A stretch of 58,246 nt of DNA from Fulvivirga sp. M361 (GTDB taxonomy: Bacteria > Bacteroidota > Bacteroidia > Cytophagales > Cyclobacteriaceae). Location of the stretch: NCBI RefSeq assembly GCF_007097395.1, contig NZ_VKDC01000037.1, positions 1-58,246 of the forward strand, written 5' to 3'. The notes beneath the pieces are model-generated. The model was not told where the DNA came from. It saw only the letters and a list, made by a program, of their open reading frames with translations, and did no database searches. Positions 24,828-56,666 of this stretch are shown here, piece after piece. Each line of letters begins with the position of its first letter. The first letter of the stretch is position 1. The translations under genes and the position numbers were made by a program.

Positions 24828-25877
24828 TCAATCAGCTATAAGAATACAACTCGGAGAGAACACGGAATCAACGGTCTTTAAGTAAGTCATTTTACCAGAA
24901 TTATTATTCAAGCCATACATACTTATTGTGTGGGAATCCATTCCTGCCACCACGAGCACTTTACCTTCCGGGTCAATAGTAAAATCCCTTGGGGTCTTAT
25001 CCCTGATCTTTTCGATCGCCAGCAGATCTAATTTTCCGGAAGATGTTAACTCGAATAGTGTGATTGTATCACACCCCCGGTTAGACACATATAGAAATTT
25101 ACCGTTGGGGTGTATTCGAATGGCTGCTCCGCTGGGAGTTGAGTTATAAGAAGGAGGCAGAGAGTTAACCCTATGAAGCAAAGTGGGATGATCAGCGGAT
25201 ATATTGAAGGTATAAATATCTCCTGTCAATTCACAAAACACAAATACGAGTGGTTTATCGGGATGCGCCACCATATGCCTGGGTCCTGAACCTGGATCCA
25301 TATTCAGATCCCATTCCGGGACAGGCTTTAGTCCATTCGACGCCGTCAACGCGTAGGCTTTACAACTATCTATTCCCAAATCAACTACGTAAATCAAATC
25401 AGTTCGTACAACACAAATCATATGGGCGTGTGGACTTTCTTGCCTTGACAAGTTTGGCCCTACTCCCCGGTGCCTGACTTCATGACTTTCAGGTAGTATT
25501 GCCCCGAATGCATCAATAGGGAATACCAACACGTTCCCCGACCCATAGTTAGCCACCAGCAAACAGTTATTATGAACCGTTAAATGACACGCCAGGGAGC
25601 CCCGGAACTCCCGGGAGTTGATGAGTGTTAACCCTCCCTGGTCATCTACTTTATAGGCATATATTTTTGGGTTTTCATCAGAGAAAAGTTCTTCTGCAGC
25701 GTAAAGAAACCGGCCATTTTCTGAGCGTGTGATATAAGCCGGGTTACGCTGAAAGATAGTGCTCAGGGGCCTTAGTTCCTGCAGCCGCTCATCGATATCA
25801 TAACATTGGATCCCCTTACCCCTACCTACTATTTCCTCTGATAATTTCTGAGTATAACTTCCGATATAGATTTTCAT
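24828..25877 (-). CDS. Lactonase-family seven-bladed beta-propeller (6-phosphogluconolactonase type)
   Basis: A 349-residue protein with MKIYIGSYTQK at the start and repeats of the LACHLTVH, GPRHMVAHPDKPLVFVFCEL, AAIRIHPNGKFLYVSNRG and DFTIDPEGKVLVVAG type, which place it in the YbhE/Pgl propeller group (PF10282). Members hydrolyse 6-phosphogluconolactone or act on muconolactone-like compounds. No signal peptide is seen, so it is cytosolic. It stands alone between a convergent DUF1697 gene and the PUL. A lactonase would fit with sugar oxidation, but there is no direct link to the downstream genes. Confidence 0.88.
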   Translation of the reverse strand: MKIYIGSYTQKLSEEIVGRGKGIQCYDIDERLQELRPLSTIFQRNPAYITRSENGRFLYAAEELFSDENPKIYAYKVDDQGGLTLINSREFRGSLACHLTVHNNCLLVANYGSGNVLVFPIDAFGAILPESHEVRHRGVGPNLSRQESPHAHMICVVRTDLIYVVDLGIDSCKAYALTASNGLKPVPEWDLNMDPGSGPRHMVAHPDKPLVFVFCELTGDIYTFNISADHPTLLHRVNSLPPSYNSTPSGAAIRIHPNGKFLYVSNRGCDTITLFELTSSGKLDLLAIEKIRDKTPRDFTIDPEGKVLVVAGMDSHTISMYGLNNNSGKMTYLKTVDSVFSPSCILIAD

Positions 25878-41481: not shown

Positions 41482-41506
41482 TTTTATTGCTAATTATCTT
41501 CGACGT

Positions 41507-41624
41507 TTACTTCTTGATGATCAGTTGAGTATTATCCACCGTTTTAAACAGATAAACTCCCGATTACAAACATTCAAAAGCGATTTGAAGCCAGATGGTT
41601 TTTCATTGGATCGACGAAAGCCTC
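41507..41624 (-). pseudogene. Relic of a T9SS C-terminal sorting domain
   Basis: The minus strand encodes, in two frames, EAFVDPMKNHLASNRF (41577-41624; recalls the VYPNPxxxxL start of type A sorting domains) and GVYLFKTVDNTQLIIKK followed by TAA (41507-41560; the usual G-Y-x-F...K ending). A frameshift, an in-frame TAA just before the second part and an internal deletion separate them. This looks like the last trace of a T9SS-exported protein, plausibly a PUL enzyme. The remaining stretch up to 41827 shows no further recognisable coding. Confidence 0.5.
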
Positions 41625-41827
41625 ATCCGGCAGTTACATGAAGGTTATGGCAGGAAGGTCTTTCAGTTTTTGATTTTAGAGGCTTTTATGCTACTAAATT
41701 GGTGTTTGGCAAGAACAATGCAATCCACCTTTATAAGGATATTTAAAGCACCTGTGCACAATCTTTGAACTAAGCAGCTGGTAATTCTCAAAAAGTAGCC
41801 TGGCCTGAGTTCCGTAAACTGTCCCTT

Positions 41828-44800
41828 TTAAGTGAGTGGTCTTTCGCTCTTTGGTAAAACACCGTATTGTTCTTTGTAGCACTTGGAAAAATAGGATGGT
41901 GAAGAAAACCCAACCTTATAGCTGATCTCATTTATATTATAATCCCCATCTTGAATTAGTAGTTTTTTAGCCTGTTCCAACCGTATTCGCCTGATAAATT
42001 CATTCACATTTAATCCGGTAAGGGCCTTTACTTTTCGATACAATTGACTCCTGCTAAGTGCCACTTCCTCAGCGATACTTTCCACACTAAGTTGTGAGTC
42101 ACTAATATGATTCTGTATGAATAAAAGTATTTTTTGCATAAAATCCCGATCTACCATAGTAGTATCAGGGGTACTATTCAGATCGCTTATGCTGTTGAGG
42201 TATTTTTCAAAAAGTACTTGCCTGCTTTTCAGCAGTTGTTTTATCTGTGCTTTCAACAGTACCATGTCAAAAGGCTTGGTAATATAGGCATCAGCTCCTT
42301 TATCCACTCCTGAGATGTGATCCTCAGGGGTACTTTTAGCAGTGAGCATAATTAATGGGATATGACTTGTTTTAATATCTGCTTTAATCTTTTCACAAAA
42401 TTCAAAACCATCCATTTCAGGCATCATTACATCCGTAATAATTACATCAGGTAAATGATGCAGCGCCATCTCAAGTCCCTCTTGCCCATTTTTGGCCATT
42501 TCAACTTGATAATGTTCTTTAAGTTCATTCTTTACAAATCTTCTTAGCTCCACATTATCATCCACCAAAAGCACAGTACTTTTTTTTCTACCATCTATCA
42601 CAGAAGCTTCTTCTAATGACGCATCTTCTGATGGTTTATCGGGCACCAAAAATTCTTTTCTTCCCGGATACTCACCCTTAACGATATCTTCTTCATTGAA
42701 GTGGTCTTTCCCAAGTGGAAAGTACAGATGAAAAGTGGTCCCTTTCCCTTCCTGACTTTCTACCTCCACCTTTCCTTTATGTAGTTCAATAAAACTTTTT
42801 ACCACCTCCAGACCAATTCCCGTACCACTGAAATACCATTGGTTCATTGGTTCGACCTGGTAAAATCGCTCGAATATTTTTTCTAAATGATCTGATGCCA
42901 ATCCCGGTCCGGTATCCGAGACAGACAGTTTGAGTGCTTCTATCTCTTCATGATCGACCAGAGGTAATAATTTACTGACTTCAGAGAGGTTAATAGTTAT
43001 AAATCCCTTTTCAGGTGTTACTTTAAAAGCATTGGAAAGCAGATTAAATAGCATTTTTTCCACTAAGCCTGAATCTACCCAAGCCGAATAATTTTCCACA
43101 TCTCCATGTACCATTAATTCGATTTCATTATTCTCTGCCTCTTCCTGAAAATATTTAGCTATCTCTTTGGTAAAACTTAGCAAATTGATCTTATGAACAT
43201 GGATCTTAAGTTTATTCGAATTTAGTTTTCGGAAATCCATCAACTCATTCACCAAACGTTCAAGCCTTCTGGCGTTTCGTTGTACTGTATTTAGCTGCCT
43301 GTTAGCCGTAATCGGGAGATCTTTCATAGTTATTAACTCCGCCAGTGGGTTCAATATCAGTGTTAACGGCGTCCTGAACTCATGAGAAATGTTGGTAAAA
43401 AATTGAAGTTTTCTTTTTGTAAGCGCTTCGTCCTGCTTGCGTCTCTCCCGCTCGTTCAGCACTTCCTGACGCTCACGAACACGCATCCTTAGTATGGTAT
43501 ACAATGTATATAATCCACTGAGGAATAAAATAATATAGACCACCAATGCCCATTTGCTTTTATACCAGGCCGGAAGGATCTTTATTTTGAGCGTTGCATG
43601 TTTTTCAGACCATTTTCCATCATTTTTAGCCGCTTTTAGCCTGAATACGTATGATCCATCTTTTAATGAAGTGTATGTAGCACTTCGTTGGTCACCTACA
43701 TAGTTCCAGTCTGATTCAAGCCCTTCTAAATAGTATGCAAATTGTATTTGCTCAGGGCGTGTAAAATTTATTCCTGTATATTCAATGGTGAAGACAGATT
43801 GATAAGCATCTAACACGATCTGATCCGTTGCTGAAAATGCTTTAGTCAGAGGGGATTCCGGCTCTCCGGGCTTTACCTCTTTATTGAATATCTTAAGCTT
43901 ATCTAAGTAAGCGTTTATCTGAGTAGAGTCAATCCTGGGCTCATCATATTTGATTTTGTTTATTCCTTCCAGGCTCCCAAAAAGAAGTACGTTATCAGGC
44001 AAACTAAGAATCGCATTATAGTTAAAGTTATTGCTCGTAAGCTCGTCTTTCTCGGTGTAATGCACCACTCTGCCTTCTTCTTCATTCAGCTTTGCTATCC
44101 CCGATTTTCCGGTAACCCATAGGTTGTTTTGATTATCTTTAGCGATGGCGCAGATAGTGTTCAGGCCCAAACTTAAAACCTGGTTATGCCATACCAGTGA
44201 GTCTGTAACCTGATGATAGCTAAATAATCCTGCCCCATCAGTACCGATCCATATCTTTTTATTTTCATCCTCATAAAGAGAAAGGATATGATTGGAATTA
44301 GGGTGTAGGTCTTTATGCGAGAATTTCGTTTTAAAATTTTGAATAAGAGTATCTTTTCCTACAATAACCATCTCATAAAGACCTAAGGTAGATCCAATCC
44401 AAATGTCTCCGTCTTGGTCTATCAGAACATCACGTATGTCCTCTTTATCTATCCATTCTCTTTTTATCCCTTCGCTTAAAACCTGTTCTATTTTGTTTTC
44501 TTTTAAAATATACTTATGAATTCCTGCTCCAAAAGTACCCATCCAAATATTCCCCTCTTTATCTTCTGTAAGATCCAGAATTCGATTGGATCTTAAACCA
44601 GAATTATCTGTATTAAAGTTTTGAAATTTTCGTTCTCCTTCAGGCAGGAAAAAAATGCCTCCTTCCCATGTACCTACCCACAGATTCCGATCTTTATCCA
44701 GCAGCATAGTTTGAACAGAAATGTTTGTTAATCCCCTGTAGCCATTTTTTGGTGTCAGATGGACAAATTGATTCTCATTGATCATGTATTTATCCACACC

Positions 44801-45931
44801 CCCTCCATCCATACCAATCCAGACAATACTATCCCCATCCTGAATCAGACTATTAACAGAATTCGCTTTTAATGAATTGTATTTATAGATATCGTGTTGG
44901 ATATGTTCAAACTTACTAAAGTCAGGGGCATACAAGCCCATTCCTTTATTATAATACCCAAGCCACAATCTGCCATCTTCATCTACTTCAATCGCCCAGA
45001 TCGAATTGGTTTCTACCGACTTCTTATCGTATGGATCTTCAATGAATTTTGAGACCTGGTTTTTCTCCATATCCCATACGAGCAAACCATCGTTTTCGGT
45101 GGCACAAAGAACCTTGCTATCTGAATAGCGATCTATGTCCATTATCCGTTTGTTCGTAATCGGAAAATGCTTTACCTCGGGATTGAATGTATGATAACCT
45201 TCAATGGATATCAAACCCTGGTCTTCCGTACCTACCCAAACGGTACCTTCGATCACAAAAATGGACTGGATAGGGCCCTGAAGTAATCGATTTTCCAATG
45301 CAATCTTAGGGGTTTCAAGTAGTTCATTGGTTTCAGAAAAAATCCGTAAACCTACATTAGTAGCCACAAACAGGTTATCAAATCGATCCCTGGCTATGTC
45401 GCTTACATTAATGTTTTGGTAGTGTGGCGTGGCGTTAATATAATTGCCTTCCGTATTCGAGCTATCTAACCGAATGATACCATTTCCACTACTACCTAAA
45501 TAGATGTTACCGGAATCATCCGCCAGAATTGAAAAGATTGACAAAAACTCCTGCGTCGGATTCTGATCATATTTAATCTTAATTCGTTGAAATTTCCTGG
45601 TTACCGGGTCGTATCGGCAGAGGCCTTTGTCGGTACCAATCCATATCCTTCCTTTGTGATCTTCTTCAAGAGAAATGATAAAATTGCTATTCACAGAACT
45701 GCTGTCATACCAATCGAATGTGTAAGGCTCATAGTTCATACCATCAAACCGATATAGCCCGGCACCAAAGGTCCCAATCCACAAGAACCCTTTATTATCG
45801 ATCAGAAAATCATTTACCGGTCGGTTAGGAAATTCTTCTTCAAAAGATTGAAATGAAAAATCCTGCGCTGCCGATTGGAAGGTAACTAACCAAACACTGC
45901 ATATACTAATTCGTATTAACCAACCACTCAT
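41828..45931 (-). CDS. Hybrid two-component system regulator (HTCS) of the PUL
   Basis: A 1367-residue one-protein phosphorelay. Signal peptide about 1-22, then two seven-bladed propellers of Reg_prop repeats (e.g. DNKGFLWIGTFGAGLYRFDG), a Y_Y_Y domain (about 715-785), one membrane helix (about 794-814), HisKA with H-box FTNISHEFRTPL (about 849), HATPase_c (SDTGPGLASD, GTGIGLEVVKSF), a receiver domain (VLLVDDN about 1120, phosphoacceptor Asp in DVIITDVMMPEMDG about 1167) and an AraC-type DNA-binding domain (about 1260-1365, VGFSSPSYFSKCYKEQYG). The periplasmic sensor usually binds an oligosaccharide released from the PUL substrate. It sits immediately upstream of the PUL on the same strand, so it most likely activates that operon. 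Confidence 0.96.
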   Translation of the reverse strand: MSGWLIRISICSVWLVTFQSAAQDFSFQSFEEEFPNRPVNDFLIDNKGFLWIGTFGAGLYRFDGMNYEPYTFDWYDSSSVNSNFIISLEEDHKGRIWIGTDKGLCRYDPVTRKFQRIKIKYDQNPTQEFLSIFSILADDSGNIYLGSSGNGIIRLDSSNTEGNYINATPHYQNINVSDIARDRFDNLFVATNVGLRIFSETNELLETPKIALENRLLQGPIQSIFVIEGTVWVGTEDQGLISIEGYHTFNPEVKHFPITNKRIMDIDRYSDSKVLCATENDGLLVWDMEKNQVSKFIEDPYDKKSVETNSIWAIEVDEDGRLWLGYYNKGMGLYAPDFSKFEHIQHDIYKYNSLKANSVNSLIQDGDSIVWIGMDGGGVDKYMINENQFVHLTPKNGYRGLTNISVQTMLLDKDRNLWVGTWEGGIFFLPEGERKFQNFNTDNSGLRSNRILDLTEDKEGNIWMGTFGAGIHKYILKENKIEQVLSEGIKREWIDKEDIRDVLIDQDGDIWIGSTLGLYEMVIVGKDTLIQNFKTKFSHKDLHPNSNHILSLYEDENKKIWIGTDGAGLFSYHQVTDSLVWHNQVLSLGLNTICAIAKDNQNNLWVTGKSGIAKLNEEEGRVVHYTEKDELTSNNFNYNAILSLPDNVLLFGSLEGINKIKYDEPRIDSTQINAYLDKLKIFNKEVKPGEPESPLTKAFSATDQIVLDAYQSVFTIEYTGINFTRPEQIQFAYYLEGLESDWNYVGDQRSATYTSLKDGSYVFRLKAAKNDGKWSEKHATLKIKILPAWYKSKWALVVYIILFLSGLYTLYTILRMRVRERQEVLNERERRKQDEALTKRKLQFFTNISHEFRTPLTLILNPLAELITMKDLPITANRQLNTVQRNARRLERLVNELMDFRKLNSNKLKIHVHKINLLSFTKEIAKYFQEEAENNEIELMVHGDVENYSAWVDSGLVEKMLFNLLSNAFKVTPEKGFITINLSEVSKLLPLVDHEEIEALKLSVSDTGPGLASDHLEKIFERFYQVEPMNQWYFSGTGIGLEVVKSFIELHKGKVEVESQEGKGTTFHLYFPLGKDHFNEEDIVKGEYPGRKEFLVPDKPSEDASLEEASVIDGRKKSTVLLVDDNVELRRFVKNELKEHYQVEMAKNGQEGLEMALHHLPDVIITDVMMPEMDGFEFCEKIKADIKTSHIPLIMLTAKSTPEDHISGVDKGADAYITKPFDMVLLKAQIKQLLKSRQVLFEKYLNSISDLNSTPDTTMVDRDFMQKILLFIQNHISDSQLSVESIAEEVALSRSQLYRKVKALTGLNVNEFIRRIRLEQAKKLLIQDGDYNINEISYKVGFSSPSYFSKCYKEQYGVLPKSERPLT

Positions 45932-45959
45932 TTAAAGCCCATTAGATGGTACTACCAGT

Positions 45960-45967
45960 CAAATATA
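45960..45967 (-). promoter_or_regulatory. Probable -7 promoter element (TATATTTG) of the HTCS gene
   Basis: Minus-strand TATATTTG matches TAnnTTTG exactly and lies 29 nt upstream of the HTCS ATG. No TTG -33 at the usual spacing. Confidence 0.5.
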
Positions 45968-46358
45968 AAGTATATATATTAGAGAGAAGATGGCAGCCTT
46001 AAGGCTTTTCATTGAAAATTGAAGCCAAAGAATTGCTTGGATAAATGAAAAATGTGGTGTTAATAGAAACAAAAGGATATTTACATTTTTGTAACTGTCT
46101 GATTTTCAGAACACAAAATCCCTACTTTACTACCTACCATAAAATTGTCCTCTCTTAAATTCAACCGGGCGGACGCGCTATACGGTTCTAGATCTTAGGA
46201 TCGCCAGGCTAGACCTACGAGTAGTTGAGGTTGGGTCATAATCCATCCCGGAAGGAGGCCTCATTAATAGTTGTCACACGGAAACCCGAACGATATCTAA
46301 GTGAGTTTAACCTCCGATATGAATTTTCATAAAAAATTATTCAAAGATCTCTTCTTTA
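45968..46358. other. Intergenic region with a GC-richer island
   Basis: No gene was recognised. Positions 46165-46310 are clearly richer in G and C than the AT-rich flanks and carry several short palindromic steps (TCTAGA-, GGATCGCC-, CTAGAC-like) but no long stem, no tRNA-like T-loop and no open frame beyond 28 codons (minus strand ATG near 46267). It might be a relic of a transferred or RNA element. Confidence 0.3.
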
Positions 46359-47516
46359 TCAAAAAAAGGCTTTTTTACTTCTGCCAACACGGTGCTTTAT
46401 CTCCTCATAAGCATCGTTAAGATGATAGAGCGTGGAAGGAATATCCTCTTCTTCCTTTAATAACCTGTGTATTGTATTGCCCAGATATTCCTGAAACACA
46501 GGCCAGTTTAAGAAACGGGGTCGGACATAGGCATGATCGAGACTATTTCTTGTATTGATAAAAAAGTCAGAGGTTAAGCTATTGGCCAGAGGATCTTCCC
46601 ATGCTTTGATGTTTCCGGGTTGTCCCTGCGCCTGTGTATAGATGCCTTTCTGAACATGTTTACTACAGATCCAGGAAGCAAAATCAGCAGCCTCTTGTTT
46701 ATTTTTACAGGTTGAAGATACCGCAATCCCTGCCCCACCTAATACCGACGTAATTCCCGGGGCATTTGAATAAACCAAACTATTTTTACGGAAACCCTCA
46801 CGAGAATAATTGGTATAATTGAACGCTAAAGGAGTGTATACTATCTCATCATGTTCAGCCATATGATCATACAATTGGATAGGATTCCAATTCAGGCTTT
46901 CAGCATAGAATTCCTCACGCATTCTTCGCATTAATTCCAGCACTTCCGTACCTGTTTTCAAATTCACTAATTCGGAAGCATCGCGGATTGGTGCGCCAAA
47001 CTGGGCGGTTAATGAAAGAAAGGTGCAAAGGCAATCTGTAGGGCATAACGCCATACCTACGAACTTGTTTTTTCGTTTTAGTCTGTCCGCCAGATCGAAA
47101 ACATCCTGCCAACCGGTTGGAACCGGTACATCCATCAGGTCAGGCCTGTAACATGCACTTTGGAAAGCTGCATCAATCGGTAATGCCCACTGGTGGCCTT
47201 GATAATGATAGCTTTCAAAACTTGGCCCGGCAGACTGAAGTTGTAAATGAGTAAAAGTATGTGGGTCTACGTATTCCTCCAGTGCCAGAACACACCTTGA
47301 TTGAGCGGCAACCCCGGAGTGGGGGTGATCGTTGATCAATAGATCAAATTTTCGAGCCAAATCTACCAGGGACTGATCTCCAAAGTCTTTTAAAGAGCGT
47401 ATCTCCCAGTTTACTTTGATTCCCGTAATCTCATAATATTTATTTGATGAGGCCACCAGCGGTTCATATCCCCGGGGATGGTCCCATGTGATCCCTTTCA
47501 GGGTTATATCATTCAT
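46359..47516 (-). CDS. Solute-binding-protein fold without signal peptide, in CoA/SDR gene cluster
   Basis: A 385-residue protein with the fold pattern of ABC-transporter family 1 solute-binding proteins (WQDVFDLADRLKRKNKFVGMA, VSSTCKNKQEAADFASWICS, PTGW-type hinge, QGQPGN). It starts with MNDITLKGITWDHPRGYEPL: no signal peptide, no lipobox and no hydrophobic segment, so it is predicted cytosolic. No ABC permease or ATPase is encoded in the window near it. The opening TWDHPRGYEPLVA and LLINDHPHSG stretches look conserved; from memory similar signal-less proteins occur beside CoA-transferases in other phyla. ATG overlaps the upstream enoyl-CoA hydratase stop by 4 nt. Possible role: intracellular ligand carrier or enzyme; unknown. 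Confidence 0.8.
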   Translation of the reverse strand: MNDITLKGITWDHPRGYEPLVASSNKYYEITGIKVNWEIRSLKDFGDQSLVDLARKFDLLINDHPHSGVAAQSRCVLALEEYVDPHTFTHLQLQSAGPSFESYHYQGHQWALPIDAAFQSACYRPDLMDVPVPTGWQDVFDLADRLKRKNKFVGMALCPTDCLCTFLSLTAQFGAPIRDASELVNLKTGTEVLELMRRMREEFYAESLNWNPIQLYDHMAEHDEIVYTPLAFNYTNYSREGFRKNSLVYSNAPGITSVLGGAGIAVSSTCKNKQEAADFASWICSKHVQKGIYTQAQGQPGNIKAWEDPLANSLTSDFFINTRNSLDHAYVRPRFLNWPVFQEYLGNTIHRLLKEEEDIPSTLYHLNDAYEEIKHRVGRSKKAFF

Positions 47517-48292
47517 GTTTTCTTCTTCAGGCTGTTTTGATAGAATTCCTGCACTTTGGTCTGCCCTTCCCTGGATTGGTAAAAACGGCTAAGTGAGGCA
47601 TTTTCAATACATAAGGCGGACAAGTCTACGCCTCCCACTCCTAGTTGGGTGAGTTGTTTTATCACTTCCAGTCTATCTGCCGGCTTACCCGTCAATTCTC
47701 TGACAAACTCTTTTGTCTTACTTTCAAATTCCTCCTTTGAATAGATATGATTAATTATCCCATGTTCATACATTTCCTCAGCCGTTACCGTGCGGCCTGT
47801 CATGATGAGTTCATTCGTAATATTGGTTCCTAGTTTTTTAGCTAGCCGTTGTGTACCGCCACCTCCGGGAATCAGGTTTAAATTGATCTCCGGCAGCCCC
47901 ATTTTAGCATATTGTCGTGCCAGGATCATATCGCATGATAAAGCTATTTCAAAGCCCCCGCCGAACGCATAACCGTTGATCGCAGCGATTATAGGTTTTG
48001 TATTTCCTTCTATAGCAGCATATAATGAACGTCCTTTAGTCTGAAAGGCTTCAAATTGCTCTTTCGTTTGTTGAGCATACTCCTTAATATCCGCACCGGC
48101 CATAAAAGCCTTCCCGTTACCTGTAATCACACACACTGCCACATCTTCACTAGCTGCAACGTTCACGAGTCCCAATGCCTGGATAATCTCATGCATCATT
48201 TGACGATTCATGGCGTTAAGCTGGTCAGGACGATTGAATTTAATCAGCCCTACCCTATCTGCTACAACGTATTCAATAAATTCAAATTCCAT
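47513..48292 (-). CDS. Enoyl-CoA hydratase/isomerase (crotonase superfamily)
   Basis: A 259-residue cytosolic crotonase. The oxyanion-hole motif AFMAGADIKEY (62-72) and YAFGGGFEIALSCD (108-121) are present, and both catalytic glutamates are where rat mitochondrial hydratase has Glu144 and Glu164, here Glu115 (GGGFE) and Glu135 (MGLPE), exactly 20 residues apart. This predicts true hydration of an enoyl-CoA double bond or its reverse. The stop overlaps the start of the solute-binding-like gene by 4 nt and the CoA-transferase lies 16 nt upstream, so these three are one translation-coupled set. The substrate is unknown; no beta-oxidation genes are near. Confidence 0.93.
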   Translation of the reverse strand: MEFEFIEYVVADRVGLIKFNRPDQLNAMNRQMMHEIIQALGLVNVAASEDVAVCVITGNGKAFMAGADIKEYAQQTKEQFEAFQTKGRSLYAAIEGNTKPIIAAINGYAFGGGFEIALSCDMILARQYAKMGLPEINLNLIPGGGGTQRLAKKLGTNITNELIMTGRTVTAEEMYEHGIINHIYSKEEFESKTKEFVRELTGKPADRLEVIKQLTQLGVGGVDLSALCIENASLSRFYQSREGQTKVQEFYQNSLKKKT

Positions 48293-48308
48293 ATTTTTCT
48301 ATGCCTGA

Positions 48309-49523
48309 TTATTCGCGTTTGGTCGCTTTCTCAACACTCATCACATTACTATCAATAAATGATTTGATCTCTTCCCTGGTATAGCCCAGTTCTTCCAGAA
48401 TTTCAGGACCATGTTCACCGGTCATGGGTGAAGGCCTGCGAATGCTCCCCGGTGTTTCACTCATGGTGAACGGGACGTTTGTTACCTTCAGCTTACCTGC
48501 TTTTGGGTGTTCTATTTCTACAAATGTGTTGTTGAAGCGGACCTGTGGATCTTTTTCCACCTCACCTTGCGCATTCACTTTTGCCACCCACAGGTCCAGC
48601 TCCAGCATGATGTCCAACCATTCTTTTGTTGTTTTTGTCACTGTTATAGCCTCTATAATACCGTGAATTTTATCCCGATCATCAAAGAGAACCTGGGGGT
48701 CATTGTATTGCATCAGTGTTTCATCTCCCAATGCTTCAACCAATTTAGGCCACGGGCTCATCGCAATGGTCAGGAACCCGTCTTTGGTTTCATACATACC
48801 GAACGGGGCTCCATTTCCCGGATGACCAATTTTTGACTCTGGCCTCTGAAAGGACGTACCTAAATTTTGAATTGTAAAATAATCCTGCATCTGAAAAGCA
48901 ATGGCAGAAGACAACAGGTTAGTTTTAATCAGTTGGCCTTTACCTGTTTTCTCACGATAATATAGTGCCGCAAGAATAGCGTATACTGAGTTTAATGCAT
49001 TTACCTGATCGCATAGGGCAGTACCAATGGCAACAGGCCCGTCTGATTTTTTACCGCTGGTCATGATAGCCCCGCTCACACTTTGTACCAACAGGTCCTG
49101 GCCCGGACGGGTAAGATAAGGTCCGTCATCTCCCCAGCCACTGGCAGAACAATAAATAATGGATGGATTGATCTTCCTGATGTCTTCATAGCCATAGCCT
49201 AATCGGTCCACCACTCCGGGTCGGAAATTTTCCAAGACGATATCCGCTTCTTCTGCCAGCTTATAGATGATCTCTTTGCCTTTGTCCGATTTCATATCAA
49301 CGGCAAGTGAACGCTTGTTACGGTTCCATGCCATAAAACAAGGGGACTCATCGCCTGCAATCCATTCATTAAAAAAAGTCATTTGCCGATAGATATCACC
49401 CGTGCCATTCCGCTCGACTTTGATCACATCAGCTCCCATATCTCCTAACATTTGAGTGGCATAAGGTCCTTGTAATAGTTGAGAAAAATCTAATACCTTG
49501 ATGCCTTCCAGCGCATATTTCAT
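48309..49523 (-). CDS. CaiB/BaiF (class III) CoA-transferase
   Basis: A 404-residue enzyme with the family pattern of interlocked dimers: N-terminal LEGIKVLDFSQLLQGPYATQ, DVIKVERNGTGD, RNKRSLAVD, and the catalytic Asp in RPGQDLLVQSVSG (Asp143, equivalent to Asp169 of formyl-CoA transferase), then GHPGNGAPFG and the C-terminal PGSIRRPSPMTGEH. It moves CoA from one acyl-CoA to a free carboxylic acid. Located between a short-chain dehydrogenase and an enoyl-CoA hydratase, it probably activates an acid formed by the dehydrogenase so that it can be hydrated or dehydrated as a CoA thioester. Acid and donor are not known. Confidence 0.94.
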   Translation of the reverse strand: MKYALEGIKVLDFSQLLQGPYATQMLGDMGADVIKVERNGTGDIYRQMTFFNEWIAGDESPCFMAWNRNKRSLAVDMKSDKGKEIIYKLAEEADIVLENFRPGVVDRLGYGYEDIRKINPSIIYCSASGWGDDGPYLTRPGQDLLVQSVSGAIMTSGKKSDGPVAIGTALCDQVNALNSVYAILAALYYREKTGKGQLIKTNLLSSAIAFQMQDYFTIQNLGTSFQRPESKIGHPGNGAPFGMYETKDGFLTIAMSPWPKLVEALGDETLMQYNDPQVLFDDRDKIHGIIEAITVTKTTKEWLDIMLELDLWVAKVNAQGEVEKDPQVRFNNTFVEIEHPKAGKLKVTNVPFTMSETPGSIRRPSPMTGEHGPEILEELGYTREEIKSFIDSNVMSVEKATKRE

Positions 49524-49573
49524 TCTACTAATTCATTTTAAATGTTACCGCATAAAGCTCACGCTTTTCTATT

Positions 49574-50350
49574 TCAATTTTCTATGTATCTGGGTAAAGC
49601 AGACAGTCCTCCATCTACTTTGATATCTTCACCTGTAATGAACCTAGACTCGTCAGAGGCCAGAAAAACAGCGGTCTGCGCCACCTCTTCGGTAGTGCCC
49701 AACCTTAGCATAGCTGCTTGATCAATACTGGCTTTCAAAAAACTTTCTCCTTCCTCTTTTTGCCTTCTTTCATTCATAGGAGTATTGATCGCTCCCGGAG
49801 AAATGGTATTGAAGCGTACGTTTTGATTGCCAAACTGCCCCGCTAACTGGACTGTCATCGCATTTATACCTCCCTTCGCCGCGGCATAGGCTGTCCAGTC
49901 ATTCCAGCTTCGTGATGCCTGTAACGATGACAAGGATATTATACTTCCCGATCGTTTTTTAAGCATGTGGGGTAACACTGTCTTTATCCCTATGAATACA
50001 CCTTTAAGGTTTACGTTCATCAATGTATCCCAATCTTCTTCCGGCATTTCAACAATATTTCCTTGCACGGCAATAGCAGCATTATTGACTAACACATCAA
50101 TTTGTTTGAAACTATTCATAACAGCTTTCACTACATTTTCCATTTGAGAGCTATTATCCACCGAACATTCAAACGGGATCGTCTCACCCCCTTTTTTATT
50201 GATCAAAGAAGACTCAGTCTCACATTTTGATAGATTTATGTCGCACATAGCCACTTTGCAACCTTCTAATGCAAACATCTGACTAATAGCAAGTCCGATA
50301 CCCTCAGCGGCACCGGTAACAACAGCAATTTTATCTTTTAGCCGTCTCAT
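49574..50350 (-). CDS. Short-chain dehydrogenase/reductase (SDR)
   Basis: A 258-residue classical SDR: cofactor loop TGAAEGIG (12-19), NNAA, catalytic Ser in ISLSSLQAS and YAAAK (about residues 150-154), then SPGAINTPMNE. CDINLS after the second strand, with an acidic residue, favours NAD over NADP. I start at the ATG at 50350 (MRRLKDKIAVVTG); a longer frame begins at TTG and only adds 11 unrelated residues inside the upstream gene. It starts 1 nt after the sugar-porter stop codon. It likely oxidises the imported sugar or sugar alcohol; substrate class is inference. Confidence 0.93.
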   Translation of the reverse strand: MRRLKDKIAVVTGAAEGIGLAISQMFALEGCKVAMCDINLSKCETESSLINKKGGETIPFECSVDNSSQMENVVKAVMNSFKQIDVLVNNAAIAVQGNIVEMPEEDWDTLMNVNLKGVFIGIKTVLPHMLKKRSGSIISLSSLQASRSWNDWTAYAAAKGGINAMTVQLAGQFGNQNVRFNTISPGAINTPMNERRQKEEGESFLKASIDQAAMLRLGTTEEVAQTAVFLASDESRFITGEDIKVDGGLSALPRYIEN

Positions 50351-50351
50351 A

Positions 50352-51734
50352 TCAGGATCTTTTAGATAACCAGTAATTTTCAATTTCTTCCAGTGTTTTG
50401 CCTTTGGTCTCAGGTATTACCTTAAGGGTGAGATAGACCGCGGGAAGTGTGCAGGCAGCAAAAAACCAAAAAGTTCCATGGGCTTTAAGGTTCTCTAAAA
50501 ACCATGGGGTCATTTGACCCACGAACGCAGTGCCCACCCATAATGCCATTGTAGCTATGGACATAGCAATACCTCTTATTCTTAAAGGATATATCTCAGA
50601 TAGTAATACCCAAATCACCGGTCCGTAAGAGAATGCAAAACAAGCAATGAAAGCCAGAATAAAAACCATCAAGAGATAAGTATTCGTTATTTCAAAGTAG
50701 AAGAGCGCGCCTACAATGATCAATGAAGAGATAATACCTATAACCCCCGTAAGGAGTAGTGTTTTCCTTCCCAGACTGTCTATTTTCCAAATAGCGATAA
50801 GGGTAAATAATACATTGACAATGCCAATAATAACCTGTCCGCCCAAAGCTTCTCCTATCTGCAAACCTGCCTCTTCCAGGATCTTTGGCCCATAATATAT
50901 AATGGCATTAATACCACTTACCTGGGTCAAAAAAGCAAAGGCTATCCCCATGATCATAGCCACTTTAAAACCACCTGAGAAGGCCATTTTCAATCCGCCG
51001 GACTCCTTAGTTAAATTAGTTTCTATATCATTTATTTCCTTTTCTGCTTCTTCCGGGTCTACAAATCTCAATAAAACCTTCCGGGCCATTTCTTTTTGTC
51101 CATTCATCATTAACCATCGAGGGCTCTTAGGAACGGTAAAAAGCAGTACAAGAAAGGTCAGAGCCGGTAAAGTTTCACTGCCCAGCATAGCTCTCCATAC
51201 TTCCGCTACCACAATTTTATTGATCAACCCGGTATTCCCTGCTAAAGCCTCAGATTGTGACAGGCCCAACAAGTAGGCATTTGAAAAATAGGCAAAGAGA
51301 ATACCTATCGTAATAGCAAATTGATAAAGCGCTACTAATCTGCCTCGCTTACCGGCAGGAGCTATCTCGGAGATATATAACGGAGATAACATCGAGGCTA
51401 TTCCAACACCTACCCCACCAATCAATCGATAAATAACCAATTGGTTAAAGTTTGCTGATAACATACATCCCAAAGCAGAAAGTCCAAAGAACAATCCTGA
51501 CAGTATGAGTACTTCTTTCCTTCCAAACCGATCGCTAAGTATCCCGGCAACCAAAACACCTGCAATAGTCCCTACCAACGCTGAACTCACATACCAGCCC
51601 TCAAGAACGGTATCTAATGTAAATTGCCCGGTAACAAAACCAATAGTTCCGGAAATAACTGCTGTATCATACCCAAAAAGGAAACCCCCAAGGGATGCTA
51701 TTACAGCTAGTCTGGTGACATATCCGCTTTTCAT
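50352..51734 (-). CDS. Sugar porter family MFS transporter (proton symporter)
   Basis: A 460-residue major facilitator with twelve predicted membrane helices. Family marks: GGFLFGYDTAVISG in helix 1, DRFGRKEVLILSG after helix 2, IYRLIGGVGVGIASMLSPLY, PKSPRWLMMNGQKEMA ahead of the central loop, VSGINAIIYYGPKI in helix 7 and PETKGKTLEEIE at the C-terminus. These place it with XylE/GalP-like sugar symporters. The start is the ATG at 51734. It lies 16 nt downstream of the GH47 gene, so a monosaccharide released by exported hydrolases is a natural substrate; xylose, glucose, or mannose cannot be told apart. Confidence 0.95.
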   Translation of the reverse strand: MKSGYVTRLAVIASLGGFLFGYDTAVISGTIGFVTGQFTLDTVLEGWYVSSALVGTIAGVLVAGILSDRFGRKEVLILSGLFFGLSALGCMLSANFNQLVIYRLIGGVGVGIASMLSPLYISEIAPAGKRGRLVALYQFAITIGILFAYFSNAYLLGLSQSEALAGNTGLINKIVVAEVWRAMLGSETLPALTFLVLLFTVPKSPRWLMMNGQKEMARKVLLRFVDPEEAEKEINDIETNLTKESGGLKMAFSGGFKVAMIMGIAFAFLTQVSGINAIIYYGPKILEEAGLQIGEALGGQVIIGIVNVLFTLIAIWKIDSLGRKTLLLTGVIGIISSLIIVGALFYFEITNTYLLMVFILAFIACFAFSYGPVIWVLLSEIYPLRIRGIAMSIATMALWVGTAFVGQMTPWFLENLKAHGTFWFFAACTLPAVYLTLKVIPETKGKTLEEIENYWLSKRS

Positions 51735-51750
51735 CAATATTCGTTTTTGA

Positions 51751-53187
51751 TTAGTAGCCTAACCTGGTTTTAGCTAATTCAGGATCAAAGCTATCTTTTC
51801 TAAAAGTATGTGCCTCAGTATTGAAAACATGCTGATCGAAGTCAAATATATCTTTCCCTGCAAAAGCGATGTAAAAATATTTCAATGTTTCAGCAAAAAA
51901 ATATGTCGCCAGATAATCATTCTCTTCCATGGTCCGGACATCTTTTATGGAATGATACGCCACTTCACTTCTACAACACGTATTGATGTCCACCCAGTAT
52001 TTTGTGATCATATCAAGGTATTCAGCTTTTCCGGTGATCTGATGTAAGTAATAAGCAGATTCAATAATCTCGGGATTCAATTCGGAGTTGGCATATTCTA
52101 CGGTGTCCGCTCCATAATGATAGCGGGTAGGAAGCAACCCATATTTGTCCCATAACCAATCCCAGGTCTGCTGATTTTTTTCTGCAGCATCAATCTGCCC
52201 ACTTACCGCCTGAATAGCAGGGAAAAATGCATCATACAATGACACCGACCTTTTTAATATTTCTCCGGTGTGCATGTCAACAATGGTGTAGTATGCACGT
52301 CCTTCGTACTCGTCCAATAGGTATTCATTGATCTTTGCACTGCTATAATCCCAAATCTCCCTGATCTCAGGGTCAGGAAAGATCATCCAGCTTTTGTACA
52401 TATACTCGTAATAGGCATCCACTCCAGCCTGCAGGTGGTGCCATTGCGTGCCGATCCACTCGCCTGTCTCGACATTGATATGTTCACCGGGAAGACCTAT
52501 TTCGGATTTTCTCTCAAAAATTGCCTTCGTAGCCCTCTTAGCAGCCTGATAGTATTTGGGGTCTTCTGTGTAATAACTCAGTATACCAAATTCGAATAAA
52601 TAGGTAGCGGCCTGGGCCACGTTGATGATATCCCCCTTACCTTCCCCTTTGTTGCCGGCTGTTTTGCCTGTGTGTAGGTTTATAGAGTGATAAGGGATAC
52701 CCGTAGGCGAATCAAAAGCGGGTAAGATCCGGTCTCCAAAATCCCTCACTTTTTCCAGGATATTCGGATTCCTGGTATATTCATACATAGCTAACAGCCC
52801 ACCGAGGATCCGGATGTTAACTTCAAAAACCTGCACATAGACGTCTTTATCCCAATTTTCTTTGAGCGCGTATTGTTCAATCTCATGGGCTTCTTCATCA
52901 AAACCCATCACTTTCAACGTACTGTAAGCATCGTATGGCGATATACCCAGGGTCTCATCATACCAGTTAAACCCTTTTTTAGAAAGAGGCAATAAAACAT
53001 CATATCCCCAGGCATGTTGCTTATAACCTTTCCAGGAACGAAGCGTTTCCTCCTTAACCTGTTGAGCAAGTTCTTCCCTGGTTTTAACATTATCCATTCC
53101 TTCTGTTTTTTCTTTTTGCTTCTCGGAAGATGATTGGCAAGCAAGAAGAAAAGTGATAATAACGATTAGACTATAGCCTATTTTCAT
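51751..53187 (-). CDS. Lipoprotein of glycoside hydrolase family 47 type (alpha-mannosidase class I)
   Basis: A 478-residue lipoprotein (lipobox LLAC, Cys17). It begins with the family pattern YKQHAWGYDVLLPLSKKGFN followed by DAYSTLKVMGF, and closes with NPEIIESAYYLHQITG, YFFAETLKYFYIAF and FNTEAHTFRK. The Thr in NTEAH is the residue that coordinates calcium in GH47, and the Glu of NPEIIES fits the conserved acidic position. GH47 enzymes cut alpha-1,2-mannose; they are mainly eukaryotic ER/Golgi enzymes with rarer bacterial members. It is the first gene of the six-gene unit, upstream of the sugar porter. Mannosidase activity is inferred from family membership. Confidence 0.8.
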   Translation of the reverse strand: MKIGYSLIVIITFLLACQSSSEKQKEKTEGMDNVKTREELAQQVKEETLRSWKGYKQHAWGYDVLLPLSKKGFNWYDETLGISPYDAYSTLKVMGFDEEAHEIEQYALKENWDKDVYVQVFEVNIRILGGLLAMYEYTRNPNILEKVRDFGDRILPAFDSPTGIPYHSINLHTGKTAGNKGEGKGDIINVAQAATYLFEFGILSYYTEDPKYYQAAKRATKAIFERKSEIGLPGEHINVETGEWIGTQWHHLQAGVDAYYEYMYKSWMIFPDPEIREIWDYSSAKINEYLLDEYEGRAYYTIVDMHTGEILKRSVSLYDAFFPAIQAVSGQIDAAEKNQQTWDWLWDKYGLLPTRYHYGADTVEYANSELNPEIIESAYYLHQITGKAEYLDMITKYWVDINTCCRSEVAYHSIKDVRTMEENDYLATYFFAETLKYFYIAFAGKDIFDFDQHVFNTEAHTFRKDSFDPELAKTRLGY

Positions 53188-53568
53188 GTGATTGTTCTTT
53201 GTAAAAGCATAAAATTGTTCAAGGTGTTATTTCGAACGACGATCATTCATTGACCTGATCTCAACTGAAACCGATTGAATATCCCTTGATTAAGACTTCA
53301 GTAAAGTTATGAGTAATAGCTATTGATTATACGACCTTATTATACCATTAAGTGCATATTTATTATGGTATTGCGACATCACAAATGTATAGATCTATAA
53401 ACCCTGAAATAAATCTGACACCACATAAATAATAGACTCATTGTTTTAATATAAAAGCATATAGAGTCATGTTAGCAAAGAAAATTATTCTTGCGCAAGG
53501 TCTACATGGGGAGATATAAGGAAAATCCCTAAGTTATTTTTTAAAAGCCGAAGGAAAAGATGCTGTAC
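53188..53568. other. Intergenic region upstream of the GH47 gene
   Basis: 381 nt without a recognisable gene. A minus-strand TACATTTG (53392-53399) fits the -7 consensus and could start the GH47-sugar-porter operon with a leader of roughly 200 nt. A CTTGCGCAAG palindrome lies near 53490. Nothing else seen. Confidence 0.35.
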
Positions 53569-56500
53569 CTATTTTATCAGTTCGTGTTTTAGAGGCTGGT
53601 CTTTTGCTATATATTTTTCAAGCTTCCCATTATTCATTTTCAAGACCCTGTCCGCCAAATGAAAATAATGATCATCATGTGTTATTGCTAACACTATTTT
53701 ACCTGTTCGCTTCATTTCTGGTAACAATGTGTTATAGAAAAATACACGATATTCCGGATCTTGATCGGCCGCCCATTCATCAAACAGAAAAATGGGGGCA
53801 TCTTCCAGGTAGCATTGTAACAATGCCAATCGCTTTCTTTGACCGGTAGACAGGTTCACAGTACTATATCTATTTCCTTTTATGGTCACCTTTTGATCCA
53901 GATCGAGGAGTTTCAAATAGCTGAGCAACGCGTCTTTTTTTTCTATGAGGTTGATGTCGTAGAGCTTTTCAAAAACGTAAGGCGGGCTAAATACAGCAGA
54001 AAAATACTCGCCTAACGCAGCATTTTTTTGTGGTTTATCATTTATACGGATAGTGCCTTCCTGAACCTCGTATAATCCTGTAATAATTTTAGCCAATGTG
54101 GTTTTACCACTACCGTTACCTCCCACAATAAATATGATCTCACCTGCCTTAGCCTCAAAATCAATCGGACCAATAGAAAAGTGTCGTTCACCGTTTTTGT
54201 TTTCATATTCATATTTTACACCTTTCATGGTAAAGGATTTAATATGAGGAATAACTGGTTCCGTTACTTTCTGTAAATCGAGGTTAGCTGGTATTTCTGC
54301 CAAAAACTGCTGTATGCGATTCCATGATACTCTTAAATTCATGATAGAAGGCACAGAAGTCAATATACCGTTTATAGGACCTATCAGATAGAGTAATACG
54401 ATGACAAAACTCATCAAGCTATACGACTTTATAGTAGGAAATACTTCCGGCATACCAAATGCCACCGCTCCCAGTAACACCACTAATAATGACTCAGCAA
54501 CTAAAAATGCATTGACAAAACTTACGTCTGCGGTTGAGGACTTTTGCCTATACCTGTCGGCACTTTGGGAAACATCATCCTTGTATTGCAATTTCTTATT
54601 ATGCCTTAGACTGATCTCTTTGTAGCCATCAACCATGCCACTTACCAACTGCATAAATGTGGTACGTTCATCGCGGGCTTTTTCAAAATACTGTTCCGTT
54701 CTTTGTGCTACTACTGCATATACCACTGCTAAGATGATAATCAACAGCACTGTCAATGCTGTTGCCCAAAAAGCAATAGAAGCGAGGTAAACGAAGGCAC
54801 CTAATGCTGTAATTACACTTGTTATCAATAACATGACAATATTCGTAGATTCTCCTATAGTGTTAATATCATCATTCAAAACGGTATAGACCCGGCCCCT
54901 GCTAATCTTTTCAAATTTTTGATAGGAAGTTGAAAAGATTTTTTCGATCATCTTAACACGTAGATCAAATACAAGTCCACGAGCAAATCGGATCAACTTA
55001 ACCTGAACGAATCGCCGTCCAAAAAGGTAGATTCCTAATATTAAAAGATAATAGAATGTCAGGTACTTCAGTTCAACTGCGGTCTGTAACGATGAAGTCA
55101 CCATCACAATAATAACAACATTCGCCAGTCCTGATAAAATACTAAACAATATAACCTGTGGGGCTATTCGTTTATACTCATTAGCTTCTACATAAAGTAA
55201 ACTGATCAAATACGTCAGGTAACTTAGAGCTACAGCTCCTGCGATGCTATACAGGAGTATTTCAAAACTCATCGGTGACCATACCAGCATGGCCACCCAT
55301 GTAAAACCTGCCAAAGCCCGAGGCAGGATGTAAAGCCCAAAGATAAAAGGCGCCAGATTTACCAATGCCAAAAGGAAGCTTTTTATCTTATGCCTATTAA
55401 AGGCTTCAAAATTCCTTTGTCCCCGAATTGCTCCGATAATAATGTGGATCAGTAAGGCGATAACAATAAGGCTATAAAGAACTACTGCTATAGAGAAAAT
55501 AGAGTACGTTCGATCTATATTGTCTGCCGGGTCTGAGCCATTGGAAGTTTCTTCTTTCTTAGCCAGGTAATTCATCAATACATTTGCAATCTCAGATGTA
55601 TACGTACTATTAGCATTGGCTAATACGGCTACACCCAACTTCGGTCCGGGTCTAAAATTTATGTGTGAAGTAAAATTTGGATTCAGGCCAGCGTGGTAAA
55701 TCTCACCCGTTCCATTCAGTGACACTTCCCAACCCGCAGCATAAGAGGACAAGCCATGTAACGTAACAGATTCATCTCTTTGATGAGTCTTCCGGATCAA
55801 ATGGTGAAAGTTTCCCTTTTCATATAGCCCCATCTGAATTTGCAGCCATTTAGCCATGTCTTCGGCATTGGATATCACATAGCCGGCAGCATTGTTACCC
55901 CTGTATATGGGGGCCTGATACTGACGTGCAGTGAAAAAGCCTATCTTATGCCCTTCTGACATAAGTGCTCTATTTTTTGGACTTCCTATCGAAGTGTATC
56001 GAAGATCCAGCGGGTCTAATATATTAGCTTGCAAATATGATTCAAAGGGTTGCTTTGCTACTGTTTGGATGATTAAGGCTAATACATCATAGTTAATGGT
56101 AGCATACTCAAATTCTTGCCCCGGAATATGATTAAGTTCCTGTGCTTGTAATCTCCTAACAGTTTGCTCCAACGCATCAGAGGCATCTGTTTCAGGAATT
56201 TTTGCAATAGTATTCCAGGGAATACCGCTGGTATGATGGAGTAACTGCCTGATAGAAACGGCAACACCCTTACCATTATATCTAAATGTAAGCCAGGGAA
56301 TATACTTTGAAACGCTATCATCTAAGGATGCGTTTGTTGTTGTTACCAAATGCATAGTTGCCAATGCGGTAAAGGCCTTACTACACGACCCCAGTTCAAA
56401 CAACGTTTTAGAGGTAACTGATCTGGTACTTTCAACATCTTTAAATCCATAGCTTTTGATGTATGTATGTTTCCCATCGATTAAAACCAGGCTTAAGCCA

Positions 56501-56661
56501 GGAATGTCTCCTTCATACATCAGTGTTTTAACCTTCGCCTCCATTTTATCCCAACCTGGTATGGTTGTAACTTCTTTTGAAAAAGAAAAAAAGTTATAGA
56601 ACAACAGCGGCAATGCTATAATCAGAGACTTTACAAGCAAACTGAACGGGGTGGATTTCAT
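53569..56661 (-). CDS. Serine hydrolase (beta-lactamase class C-like) fused to cyclic-peptide ABC exporter
   Basis: A 1030-residue fusion. Signal/anchor 10-28, then an exported serine-hydrolase domain with the SxxK nucleophile motif SCSK (Ser92, Lys95), YATINYD in the place of the Tyr-x-Asn motif (the Asn is Thr here), and HAG near residue 330 as third motif. About residue 400 the chain enters the membrane; the ABC membrane domain (six helices, about 475-790) and an ATPase domain with Walker A GGNGSGKTT (about 850), signature LSTGQ and Walker B IFLFDEWAAD (about 960) follow. Such fusions of hydrolase and SyrD/PvdE-like exporter occur in NRPS loci. The gene starts 5 nt after the NRPS stop; it likely exports and perhaps trims or releases the peptide. 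Confidence 0.9.
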   Translation of the reverse strand: MKSTPFSLLVKSLIIALPLLFYNFFSFSKEVTTIPGWDKMEAKVKTLMYEGDIPGLSLVLIDGKHTYIKSYGFKDVESTRSVTSKTLFELGSCSKAFTALATMHLVTTTNASLDDSVSKYIPWLTFRYNGKGVAVSIRQLLHHTSGIPWNTIAKIPETDASDALEQTVRRLQAQELNHIPGQEFEYATINYDVLALIIQTVAKQPFESYLQANILDPLDLRYTSIGSPKNRALMSEGHKIGFFTARQYQAPIYRGNNAAGYVISNAEDMAKWLQIQMGLYEKGNFHHLIRKTHQRDESVTLHGLSSYAAGWEVSLNGTGEIYHAGLNPNFTSHINFRPGPKLGVAVLANANSTYTSEIANVLMNYLAKKEETSNGSDPADNIDRTYSIFSIAVVLYSLIVIALLIHIIIGAIRGQRNFEAFNRHKIKSFLLALVNLAPFIFGLYILPRALAGFTWVAMLVWSPMSFEILLYSIAGAVALSYLTYLISLLYVEANEYKRIAPQVILFSILSGLANVVIIVMVTSSLQTAVELKYLTFYYLLILGIYLFGRRFVQVKLIRFARGLVFDLRVKMIEKIFSTSYQKFEKISRGRVYTVLNDDINTIGESTNIVMLLITSVITALGAFVYLASIAFWATALTVLLIIILAVVYAVVAQRTEQYFEKARDERTTFMQLVSGMVDGYKEISLRHNKKLQYKDDVSQSADRYRQKSSTADVSFVNAFLVAESLLVVLLGAVAFGMPEVFPTIKSYSLMSFVIVLLYLIGPINGILTSVPSIMNLRVSWNRIQQFLAEIPANLDLQKVTEPVIPHIKSFTMKGVKYEYENKNGERHFSIGPIDFEAKAGEIIFIVGGNGSGKTTLAKIITGLYEVQEGTIRINDKPQKNAALGEYFSAVFSPPYVFEKLYDINLIEKKDALLSYLKLLDLDQKVTIKGNRYSTVNLSTGQRKRLALLQCYLEDAPIFLFDEWAADQDPEYRVFFYNTLLPEMKRTGKIVLAITHDDHYFHLADRVLKMNNGKLEKYIAKDQPLKHELIK

Positions 56662-56666
56662 ATATT

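Follow-up and report, generated by a model that had tools for sequence, protein, structure and literature searches.

The DNA analysed here (hereafter the window) is a 58,246-nt stretch of Fulvivirga sp. M361 (contig NZ_VKDC01000037.1) in which five adjacent minus-strand genes encode a sugar porter, an SDR dehydrogenase, a class III CoA-transferase, a crotonase-family protein and a solute-binding protein (SBP) designated SBP1 (Table 1). An initial annotation of this DNA described these genes as overlapping or separated by 1-50 nt, and with ATG starts the gaps are indeed 1 nt (porter to SDR), 50 nt (SDR to CoA-transferase) and 16 nt (CoA-transferase to crotonase), with a 4-nt overlap between the crotonase and SBP1 genes. 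All five proteins pass their Pfam cut-offs. A GH47-family glycosidase gene ends 13 nt before the TTG and 16 nt before the ATG of the porter gene and is probably the first gene of the operon run. The clustering of an SBP that lacks an export signal with CoA enzymes is confirmed below as a real feature that recurs across phyla, and we conclude for three phyla that a binding protein of the transport type has come to accompany CoA enzymes of sugar catabolism in the cytosol.

Table 1. Coordinates and assignments of the window features considered in the text
Feature	Coordinates	Strand	Remarks
SBP1: signal-less CUT1/MalE-type solute-binding protein	46359..47516	minus	385 aa; TWxHxRG motif at residues 10-16
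Crotonase-family protein (enoyl-CoA hydratase/dehydratase)	47513..48292	minus	PF00378 182.3 bits; Glu115 and Glu135 presumed catalytic
Class III (CaiB/BaiF) CoA-transferase	48309..49523	minus	PF02515 365.6 bits (cut-off 23.3); Asp143
SDR dehydrogenase	49574..50383, likely ATG at 50350	minus	PF13561 230.8 bits
Sugar porter family MFS transporter	50352..51737, ATG at 51734	minus	PF00083 375.5 bits
GH47-family glycosidase, lipoprotein-like leader	51751..53187	minus	PF01532 321.9 bits; hydrophobic N-terminus then Cys
7-bladed beta-propeller lactonase, leaderless	24828..25877	minus	PF10282 287.3 bits
Hybrid two-component regulator	41828-45931		Downstream of operon

Export signals were judged by the maximum hydropathy over 11 residues and by the reading frames upstream of the start codon. 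The maximum for SBP1 of the window is 0.10, compared with 2.7-3.5 in four window proteins with export-like leaders, and the frame upstream of its ATG is closed by a stop at a distance of 24 codons and encodes no hydrophobic stretch, in agreement with the earlier description of this protein as lacking a signal peptide. An export signal is likewise not seen in the SBP1 proteins of 40 homologous loci (hydropathy ≤1.44), and the 120 best SBP1 relatives do not exceed 1.61, compared with 2.0-3.5 in seven leader-bearing controls. Upstream frames are closed within 25 codons at 27 of the 40 loci and open over 35-71 codons at 13; four of the 13 open frames hold a start codon, and none of those extensions exceeds 1.36. 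The upstream extension at locus L044 is hydrophobic (2.98) but has no start codon. A missed signal peptide or a wrongly placed SBP1 start is thus ruled out by the upstream frames together with hydropathy.

SBP1 matches the SBP_bac profiles (PF13416, 46.6 bits; PF01547, 30.0 bits) and is predicted to adopt the two-lobe fold of MalE-type proteins, in a fold search that covered the PDB; a Pfam scan found no DNA-binding or signalling domain in it. The absence of an ABC permease or ATPase nearby, as first reported, also holds: no ABC importer gene, and hence no cognate permease or ATPase for SBP1, lies at 38592-58211 of the window, where the ABC-type gene at 53569-56661 (see below) is exporter-like. 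In the tree the SBP1 proteins form one branch apart from the transport SBPs, with a long stem and support of 100/100, and in 100% of the 200 bootstrap trees a single branch divides them from all other sequences. The point at which SBP1 joins the transport SBPs is unsure, since the program issued a warning about long branches separating the SBP groups. The SBP1 proteins of the 40 loci are 28-58% identical to the window protein, and a metagenome-assembled genome (MAG) from Cytophagales encodes one that is 75% identical. In all 41 aligned sequences (the window and the 40 loci, some of them near-copies) 34 positions are identical, including W11, H13, R15, D63, D115, R124, Y234, Y237, Q299 and R332. 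Public records name the homologues extracellular or ABC transporter substrate-binding proteins, labels that are misleading given that no export signal is seen and that CoA enzymes are encoded alongside. Judged by its sequence, SBP1 is a putative cytosolic, non-transport member of the MalE-type fold.

The initial annotation regarded a linked ABC transporter as evidence against such a role. Linked ABC transporters do formally occur in Pseudomonadota, but those systems bring their own SBP: among nine ABC-linked SBPs in the tree, six have a full leader, two (L070 and L075) have a shortened leader and one (L067) has no leader as annotated. Because these systems own separate SBPs, and because SBP1 is signal-less and stands apart in the tree, their presence does not refute cytosolic action of SBP1.

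Of the 47 loci read, which belong to Bacteroidota, Pseudomonadota and Actinomycetota, 45 have a CoA-transferase gene no more than 3 kb from SBP1. The 47 are not all independent, since some are near-copies of one another (nine from one genus, three from S. meliloti/medicae). One or two class III CoA-transferases stand beside SBP1 in 28 of the 29 Bacteroidota loci (the window, L001-L004, L038-L058, L066, L074 and L090), and 17 of 18 plasmid loci from Pseudomonadota and Actinomycetota, read out of 145 matching plasmid records, have one within 3 kb. Where a CoA-transferase is present, a hydratase (crotonase or MaoC) is encoded in the fetched stretch at all 28 Bacteroidota loci and at 14 of the 17 plasmid loci; the S. 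meliloti/medicae loci L065, L069 and L070 have none in the stretch fetched. Stop/start overlaps of SBP1 with a CoA-transferase or crotonase gene occur in the window and at several other loci. At the genome level, SBP1 matches were found in 29 of 394 genomes of the phylum (19 strong, with E ≤ 1e-60, and ten weak and partial) and the CoA-transferase family in 87, among which all 19 SBP1 genomes fall (hypergeometric P = 6e-14 if genomes are taken as independent; nine of the 19 belong to one genus). As a negative control, ordinary SBPs with weak matches had a CoA-transferase at none of the four loci fetched (L059-L062) out of ten such genomes. The 8.1-Mb genome to which the window belongs has three SBP1 loci and five CoA-transferase genes, four of them at those loci. 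Chance adjacency of SBP1 and the CoA enzymes is ruled out by these locus and genome counts. Only 2 of 38 close relatives have SBP1, and with so patchy a distribution the module formed by SBP1 and its CoA enzymes either moves or is often lost.

The two exceptional loci differ from each other. In genome G286 (L054), SBP1 is the first gene of an operon with open reading frames (ORFs) that by eye resemble L-rhamnose isomerase, a kinase and an aldolase. The same contig also encodes, about 60 kb from SBP1, a pair of CoA-transferases together with ORFs resembling MaoC, Gfo/Idh and SBP2 (L094; SBP2 is described below). In Microvirga (L071), two UxuA dehydratases beside SBP1 replace the CoA-transferase and hydratase. 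An RraA-like protein encoded near SBP1 with UxuA-family, SDR and lactonase genes was also seen, both in L071 and in the window's own genome (L107).

Two forms of the module were distinguished. Type II, the form in the window, has one CoA-transferase and a crotonase, and type I mostly has two CoA-transferases with MaoC and Gfo/Idh. The full window order of porter, SDR, CoA-transferase, crotonase and SBP1 was found in a Flavobacteriaceae MAG (L001), with identities to the window proteins of 75, 57, 83, 78 and 58%, respectively; there a lactonase gene overlaps SBP1 by 4 nt. Conservation beyond one genus, on which the first description depended, was borne out: CoA-transferase, SBP1 and crotonase occur together in Sinorhizobium, Pseudosulfitobacter, Variovorax, Azospirillum and a Streptomyces. 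All of these except Azospirillum, for which none was seen, also have an SDR within the stretch. The run in Sinorhizobium and Pseudosulfitobacter comprises Gfo/Idh, a TIM-barrel isomerase, a DUF4432 'aldose epimerase', SDR, CoA-transferase, SBP1 and crotonase, and that in Variovorax, Azospirillum and Streptomyces NBC_00841 is CoA-transferase-SBP1-crotonase-FAH. Streptomyces ITFR-6 has SBP1-FAH followed by CoA-transferase, MFS and MaoC genes. Alphaproteobacteria have MaoC-CoA-transferase-SBP1, or CoA-transferase-SBP1, beside a fucose regulon with its own ABC importer. Annotated LacI or IclR regulators are close to several SBP1 loci. Many type I loci of Bacteroidota lie inside L-fucose/L-rhamnose-type clusters with FucP or RhaT and carry SBP2, a further family of SBPs without a signal peptide, whose genes adjoin the CoA-transferase pair (L043:11186-12442 and 14 more type I Bacteroidota loci). 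SBP2 proteins are 375-418 aa long, 14 of the 15 rows show an RxFxxFE motif close to the N-terminus, and the family forms one branch with support 99/99. The type I MaoC matches PDB entry 4ffu (212 bits), which is named only 'oxidase'.

Both CoA enzymes of the window were initially expected to be active; their active-site residues are indeed intact, and activity itself is predicted from these. The CoA-transferase has Asp143, presumably the catalytic residue, in a PGQD motif, and an Asp is aligned there in all 46 cluster CoA-transferases; its best PDB match is a succinate-hydroxymethylglutarate CoA-transferase (9br6, 217.5 bits). The crotonase retains Glu115 and Glu135, which we take to be the catalytic pair, and best matches 3-hydroxypropionyl-CoA dehydratase (5zai, 174 bits); its best 25 of 72 models all score under their cut-offs. 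The SDR passes one subfamily model, NF005559 (glucose 1-dehydrogenase, 221.6 against a cut-off of 215), with the other 24 of the best 25 of 231 models under cut-off, and is a candidate aldose or aldonate dehydrogenase. The porter passes TIGR00879 (375.9, cut-off 237.8); its best-scoring curated model is that of the D-xylose transporter XylE (NF007484), but the score of 379.5 is under the cut-off of 608. The lactonase of the window, a possible partner converting lactone to aldonate, is 39% identical to the one that overlaps SBP1 in L001. The genome has only three lactonases of the PF10282 type, two of them no more than 21 kb away from a locus with SBP1, crotonase and CoA-transferase.

Sugar dehydrogenases, lactonases, L-fucose genes or FAH enzymes of the 2-keto-3-deoxy-acid type are neighbours of the module. 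In three profiled fucose clusters (L043, L046 and L050), FucP and L-fucose dehydrogenase pass their cut-offs, whereas the lactonase and FAH enzymes do not reach theirs. FAH proteins of about 380-400 aa accompany the module in Variovorax, Pseudosulfitobacter, Azospirillum and two Streptomyces (L073, L085, L086, L088 and L089). The one compared, from Variovorax (L086), matches 2-keto-3-deoxy-D-arabinonate dehydratase (2q18) at 65 bits and 9kkt, an entry named only FAH family protein, at 427 bits. This company suggests that the module works in sugar-acid catabolism. A sugar or sugar acid had been proposed at the outset; the sugar setting is upheld and the substrate can be narrowed, since with lactonases, FucP, L-fucose dehydrogenase or FAH alongside it is best read as an aldonate. 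Furthermore, because an importer, an oxidising enzyme and a lactonase or 2-keto-3-deoxy-acid enzyme accompany the module, an aldonate probably enters it and a 2-keto-3-deoxy acid leaves it, and the module may occupy the step between the two.

We tentatively propose, with a confidence somewhat short of even, that the operon dehydrates an aldonate as its CoA thioester by means of the CoA-transferase and the crotonase or MaoC, with SBP1 binding the aldonate in the cytosol. The porter would import a monosaccharide released by neighbouring glycosidases, and the SDR and lactonase, to judge from their families and linkage, would yield the aldonate. The class III CoA-transferase would then shift CoA from the dehydrated product to fresh aldonate, and the crotonase (MaoC in the sister type) would dehydrate the aldonyl-CoA, leaving a 2-keto-3-deoxy acid once the CoA had been passed on. 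SBP1 might capture the aldonate, the corresponding lactone or the keto product and hand it to the CoA-transferase or hydratase. The exchange of crotonase and MaoC in the same slot, together with the retention of both crotonase Glu residues, fits hydration or dehydration of a CoA ester. That a cytosolic MalE-type SBP is an obligate part, as delivery subunit or catalyst, of a CoA-dependent sugar-acid dehydratase system with interchangeable crotonase and MaoC in at least three phyla is a stronger claim that we consider doubtful. The interpretation given in the initial annotation is partly supported, with the exact pathway and the role of SBP1 remaining proposals.

An apparent gap in L-fucose catabolism bears on the proposed dehydration. 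Genome G343 (a single contig, 99% complete) has an L-fucose cluster with the module and no assignable fuconate dehydratase. The cluster encodes L-fucose dehydrogenase (356.7, cut-off 300) and FucP (354, cut-off 280), along with a lactonase-like protein (271, under 400) and a FAH resembling diketo-hydrolases (368, under 500). The enolase-superfamily matches of this genome are DgcA-like, MenC-like (124.5, cut-off 130.55) and enolase-like, the weak match being enolase by its length and its counterpart in G170. There is one IlvD, and the only UxaA belongs to a galacturonate locus, beside tagaturonate reductase and glucuronate isomerase that both score over their cut-offs.

Several observations weigh against dehydration by the module, against the steps proposed for it or against a role of SBP1 tied to CoA. 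Aldonyl-CoA is a proposed intermediate only. G343 itself has two UxuA-family genes, and other genomes of its genus weaken the gap, so the argument rests on G343: G170 has, besides the UxaA of a galacturonate-type locus, a second one next to ORFs that by eye are FAH-like and SDR-like (L104 and L106); G021 has an enolase-superfamily match of the size of a sugar-acid dehydratase; and G202, G222 and G316 each have a second IlvD (G021 and G202 have one UxaA each). Fucose clusters of alphaproteobacteria hold the module plus an annotated L-fuconate dehydratase or a UxaA pair, which rules out the module as a universal replacement for a single dehydratase. In the window's own genome, the SBP1-crotonase-CoA-transferase set of the sister locus C105 has a UxuA-like gene (183 bits) at a distance of about 14 kb, and a fucose cluster on C69 (L105) carries a UxaA-family dehydratase (PF20629/PF04295), which apparently fills the L-fuconate dehydratase slot, and no CoA module. 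That genome also has no FAH gene of about 400 aa (open frames of 287, 208, 202 and 439 aa). No single sugar is indicated: GH47 and xylan genes stand in the window and mannosidases at C105, where GH38, GH92 and GH130 genes are found. D-xylose, to which the XylE-like porter and the xylan genes point, is retained as no more than a possibility since C105 carries these three genes. Finally, in Microvirga and G286 SBP1 is found with no CoA-transferase in its vicinity, and it may therefore act independently of CoA.

This last point also favours the best-surviving alternative, namely that SBP1 is itself an enzyme (a sugar-acid dehydratase, lactonase or isomerase) and that the CoA-transferase and hydratase act on a later or parallel intermediate. 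The 34 invariant positions in 41 members, despite only 28-58% identity to the window protein, are what an enzyme might show, and enzymes derived from SBPs are already described in the available text of PMC7683729; even so, we hold this alternative to be unlikely.

Chain cleavage, which we judge to be improbable, would have the SDR and Gfo/Idh produce a 3-keto-aldonate, the CoA-transferase activate it and the crotonase-fold enzyme split the 3-keto-aldonyl-CoA. SDR and Gfo/Idh dehydrogenases are recurrent neighbours, and hydrolases with a crotonase fold exist. A glyceryl-CoA intermediate is mentioned for deoxyribonate oxidation in the accessible part of PMC9007349. However, both hydratase Glu residues are kept, MaoC takes the place of the crotonase in the sister type, the FAH enzyme suits a 2-keto-3-deoxy acid, and the window run contains no thiolase gene. 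Besides the window run, the Roseibium locus L063 was the one locus searched for this gene; a thiolase is annotated near it, in a divergent operon of its own.

A role for SBP1 as sensor, buffer or allosteric regulator in the cytosol, with no direct catalytic part, seems slightly less probable still. The SBP fold is kept and the LacI/IclR regulators near several loci would be compatible with sensing, but SBP1 has no domain for DNA binding or signalling, and its constant partner is the CoA-transferase, with stop/start overlaps in the window and at several loci that link its gene to that of the CoA-transferase or of the crotonase.

Ordinary fatty-acid or aromatic degradation with an incidental SBP is scarcely credible despite the 181 bits of the crotonase to the enoyl-CoA hydratase model PRK07658, and the gene context rules out the fatty-acid form: the neighbours are sugar genes, as the initial annotation held, no beta-oxidation partner (acyl-CoA dehydrogenase or thiolase) is among the genes of the window run, and the CoA-transferase accompanies SBP1 across three phyla and is absent from the control loci.

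Downstream of the operon, window positions 24828-45931 form a xylan-type polysaccharide utilisation locus with two GH3 genes, a TonB receptor/SusD pair, a surface glycan-binding protein, GH10, the lactonase and the hybrid regulator (Table 1). Elsewhere in the window, an ABC-type gene (53569-56661) encodes a beta-lactamase-family domain fused to an exporter-like membrane and ATPase part. The neighbouring protein (within 53569-58211) combines three domains (AMP-binding C-terminal, carrier and thioesterase) and is probably the final part of a peptide synthetase. A subtilase of 1511 aa with Ig-like domains and a secretion-system sorting tail is encoded at 13853-18388.

Taken together, the clusters point to a way of sugar breakdown that is not yet described. 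If dehydration at the level of aldonyl-CoA is correct, oxidative sugar catabolism would gain an unassigned CoA-thioester branch, the module would fill the place of the missing L-fuconate dehydratase in some Bacteroidota, and SBP1 would clearly exemplify how a transport binding protein can be drawn into the metabolism of the cytosol. If SBP1 is in addition obligate, the fold of transport SBPs would have been put to a new use within sugar catabolism, and the chemistry applied to aldonates would be new as well. Homologues are present in Sinorhizobium meliloti 1021 and Zobellia galactanivorans, which makes the question testable in tractable strains.

Compared with known systems, SBP1 differs from the SBPs of CUT1 sugar ABC transporters (MalE3, LpqY and SmoF/SQBP) in being signal-less, in having no permease or ATPase of its own and in forming a separate, long-stemmed branch. 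Non-phosphorylative L-fucose and pentose pathways resemble the clusters in combining dehydrogenase, lactonase, FAH enzymes and transporters, but the portions of the texts compared contain no step for a CoA-transferase, a hydratase or SBP1; the terms 'CoA transferase' and 'CaiB' are absent from the available main text on L-fucose use in Variovorax (PMC12911387) and from that on SAR202 (PMC10444878). Among the matches listed in the open-access literature, which leaves subscription papers mostly uncovered, no title or opening of an abstract describes an SBP with a CoA-transferase and a hydratase in sugar catabolism. Enzymes derived from SBPs, as far as the accessible text goes, share the recruitment of a binding-protein fold to catalysis (PMC7683729), but SBP1 is MalE-type, putatively cytosolic and tied to CoA enzymes, and its own catalysis is hypothetical.

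The closest likeness is to carnitine metabolism, in which, according to the available part of PMC2131755, CaiB and CaiD dehydrate via CoA esters with cycling of CoA. In enterobacterial CaiB/CaiD(/CaiC), a class III CoA-transferase and a crotonase dehydrate a hydroxy acid while CoA cycles from product to substrate (PMC2131755, same part), a cycle that is only proposed here. The window proteins score under the carnitine-specific cut-offs (156.5 against 413 for L-carnitine CoA-transferase, NF002914; 122.9 against 500 for crotonobetainyl-CoA hydratase, NF002936), and the present system differs in its sugar-acid context, in the MaoC alternative and in having a signal-less SBP1 as constant partner. 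In Methylobacterium nodulans (L077:10176-11723), an AMP-binding acyl-CoA ligase directly follows MaoC-CoA-transferase-SBP1, an arrangement like that of CaiC, which primes CaiB/CaiD. By this analogy, the enzyme logic of the operon is plausibly a variant of CaiB/CaiD chemistry.

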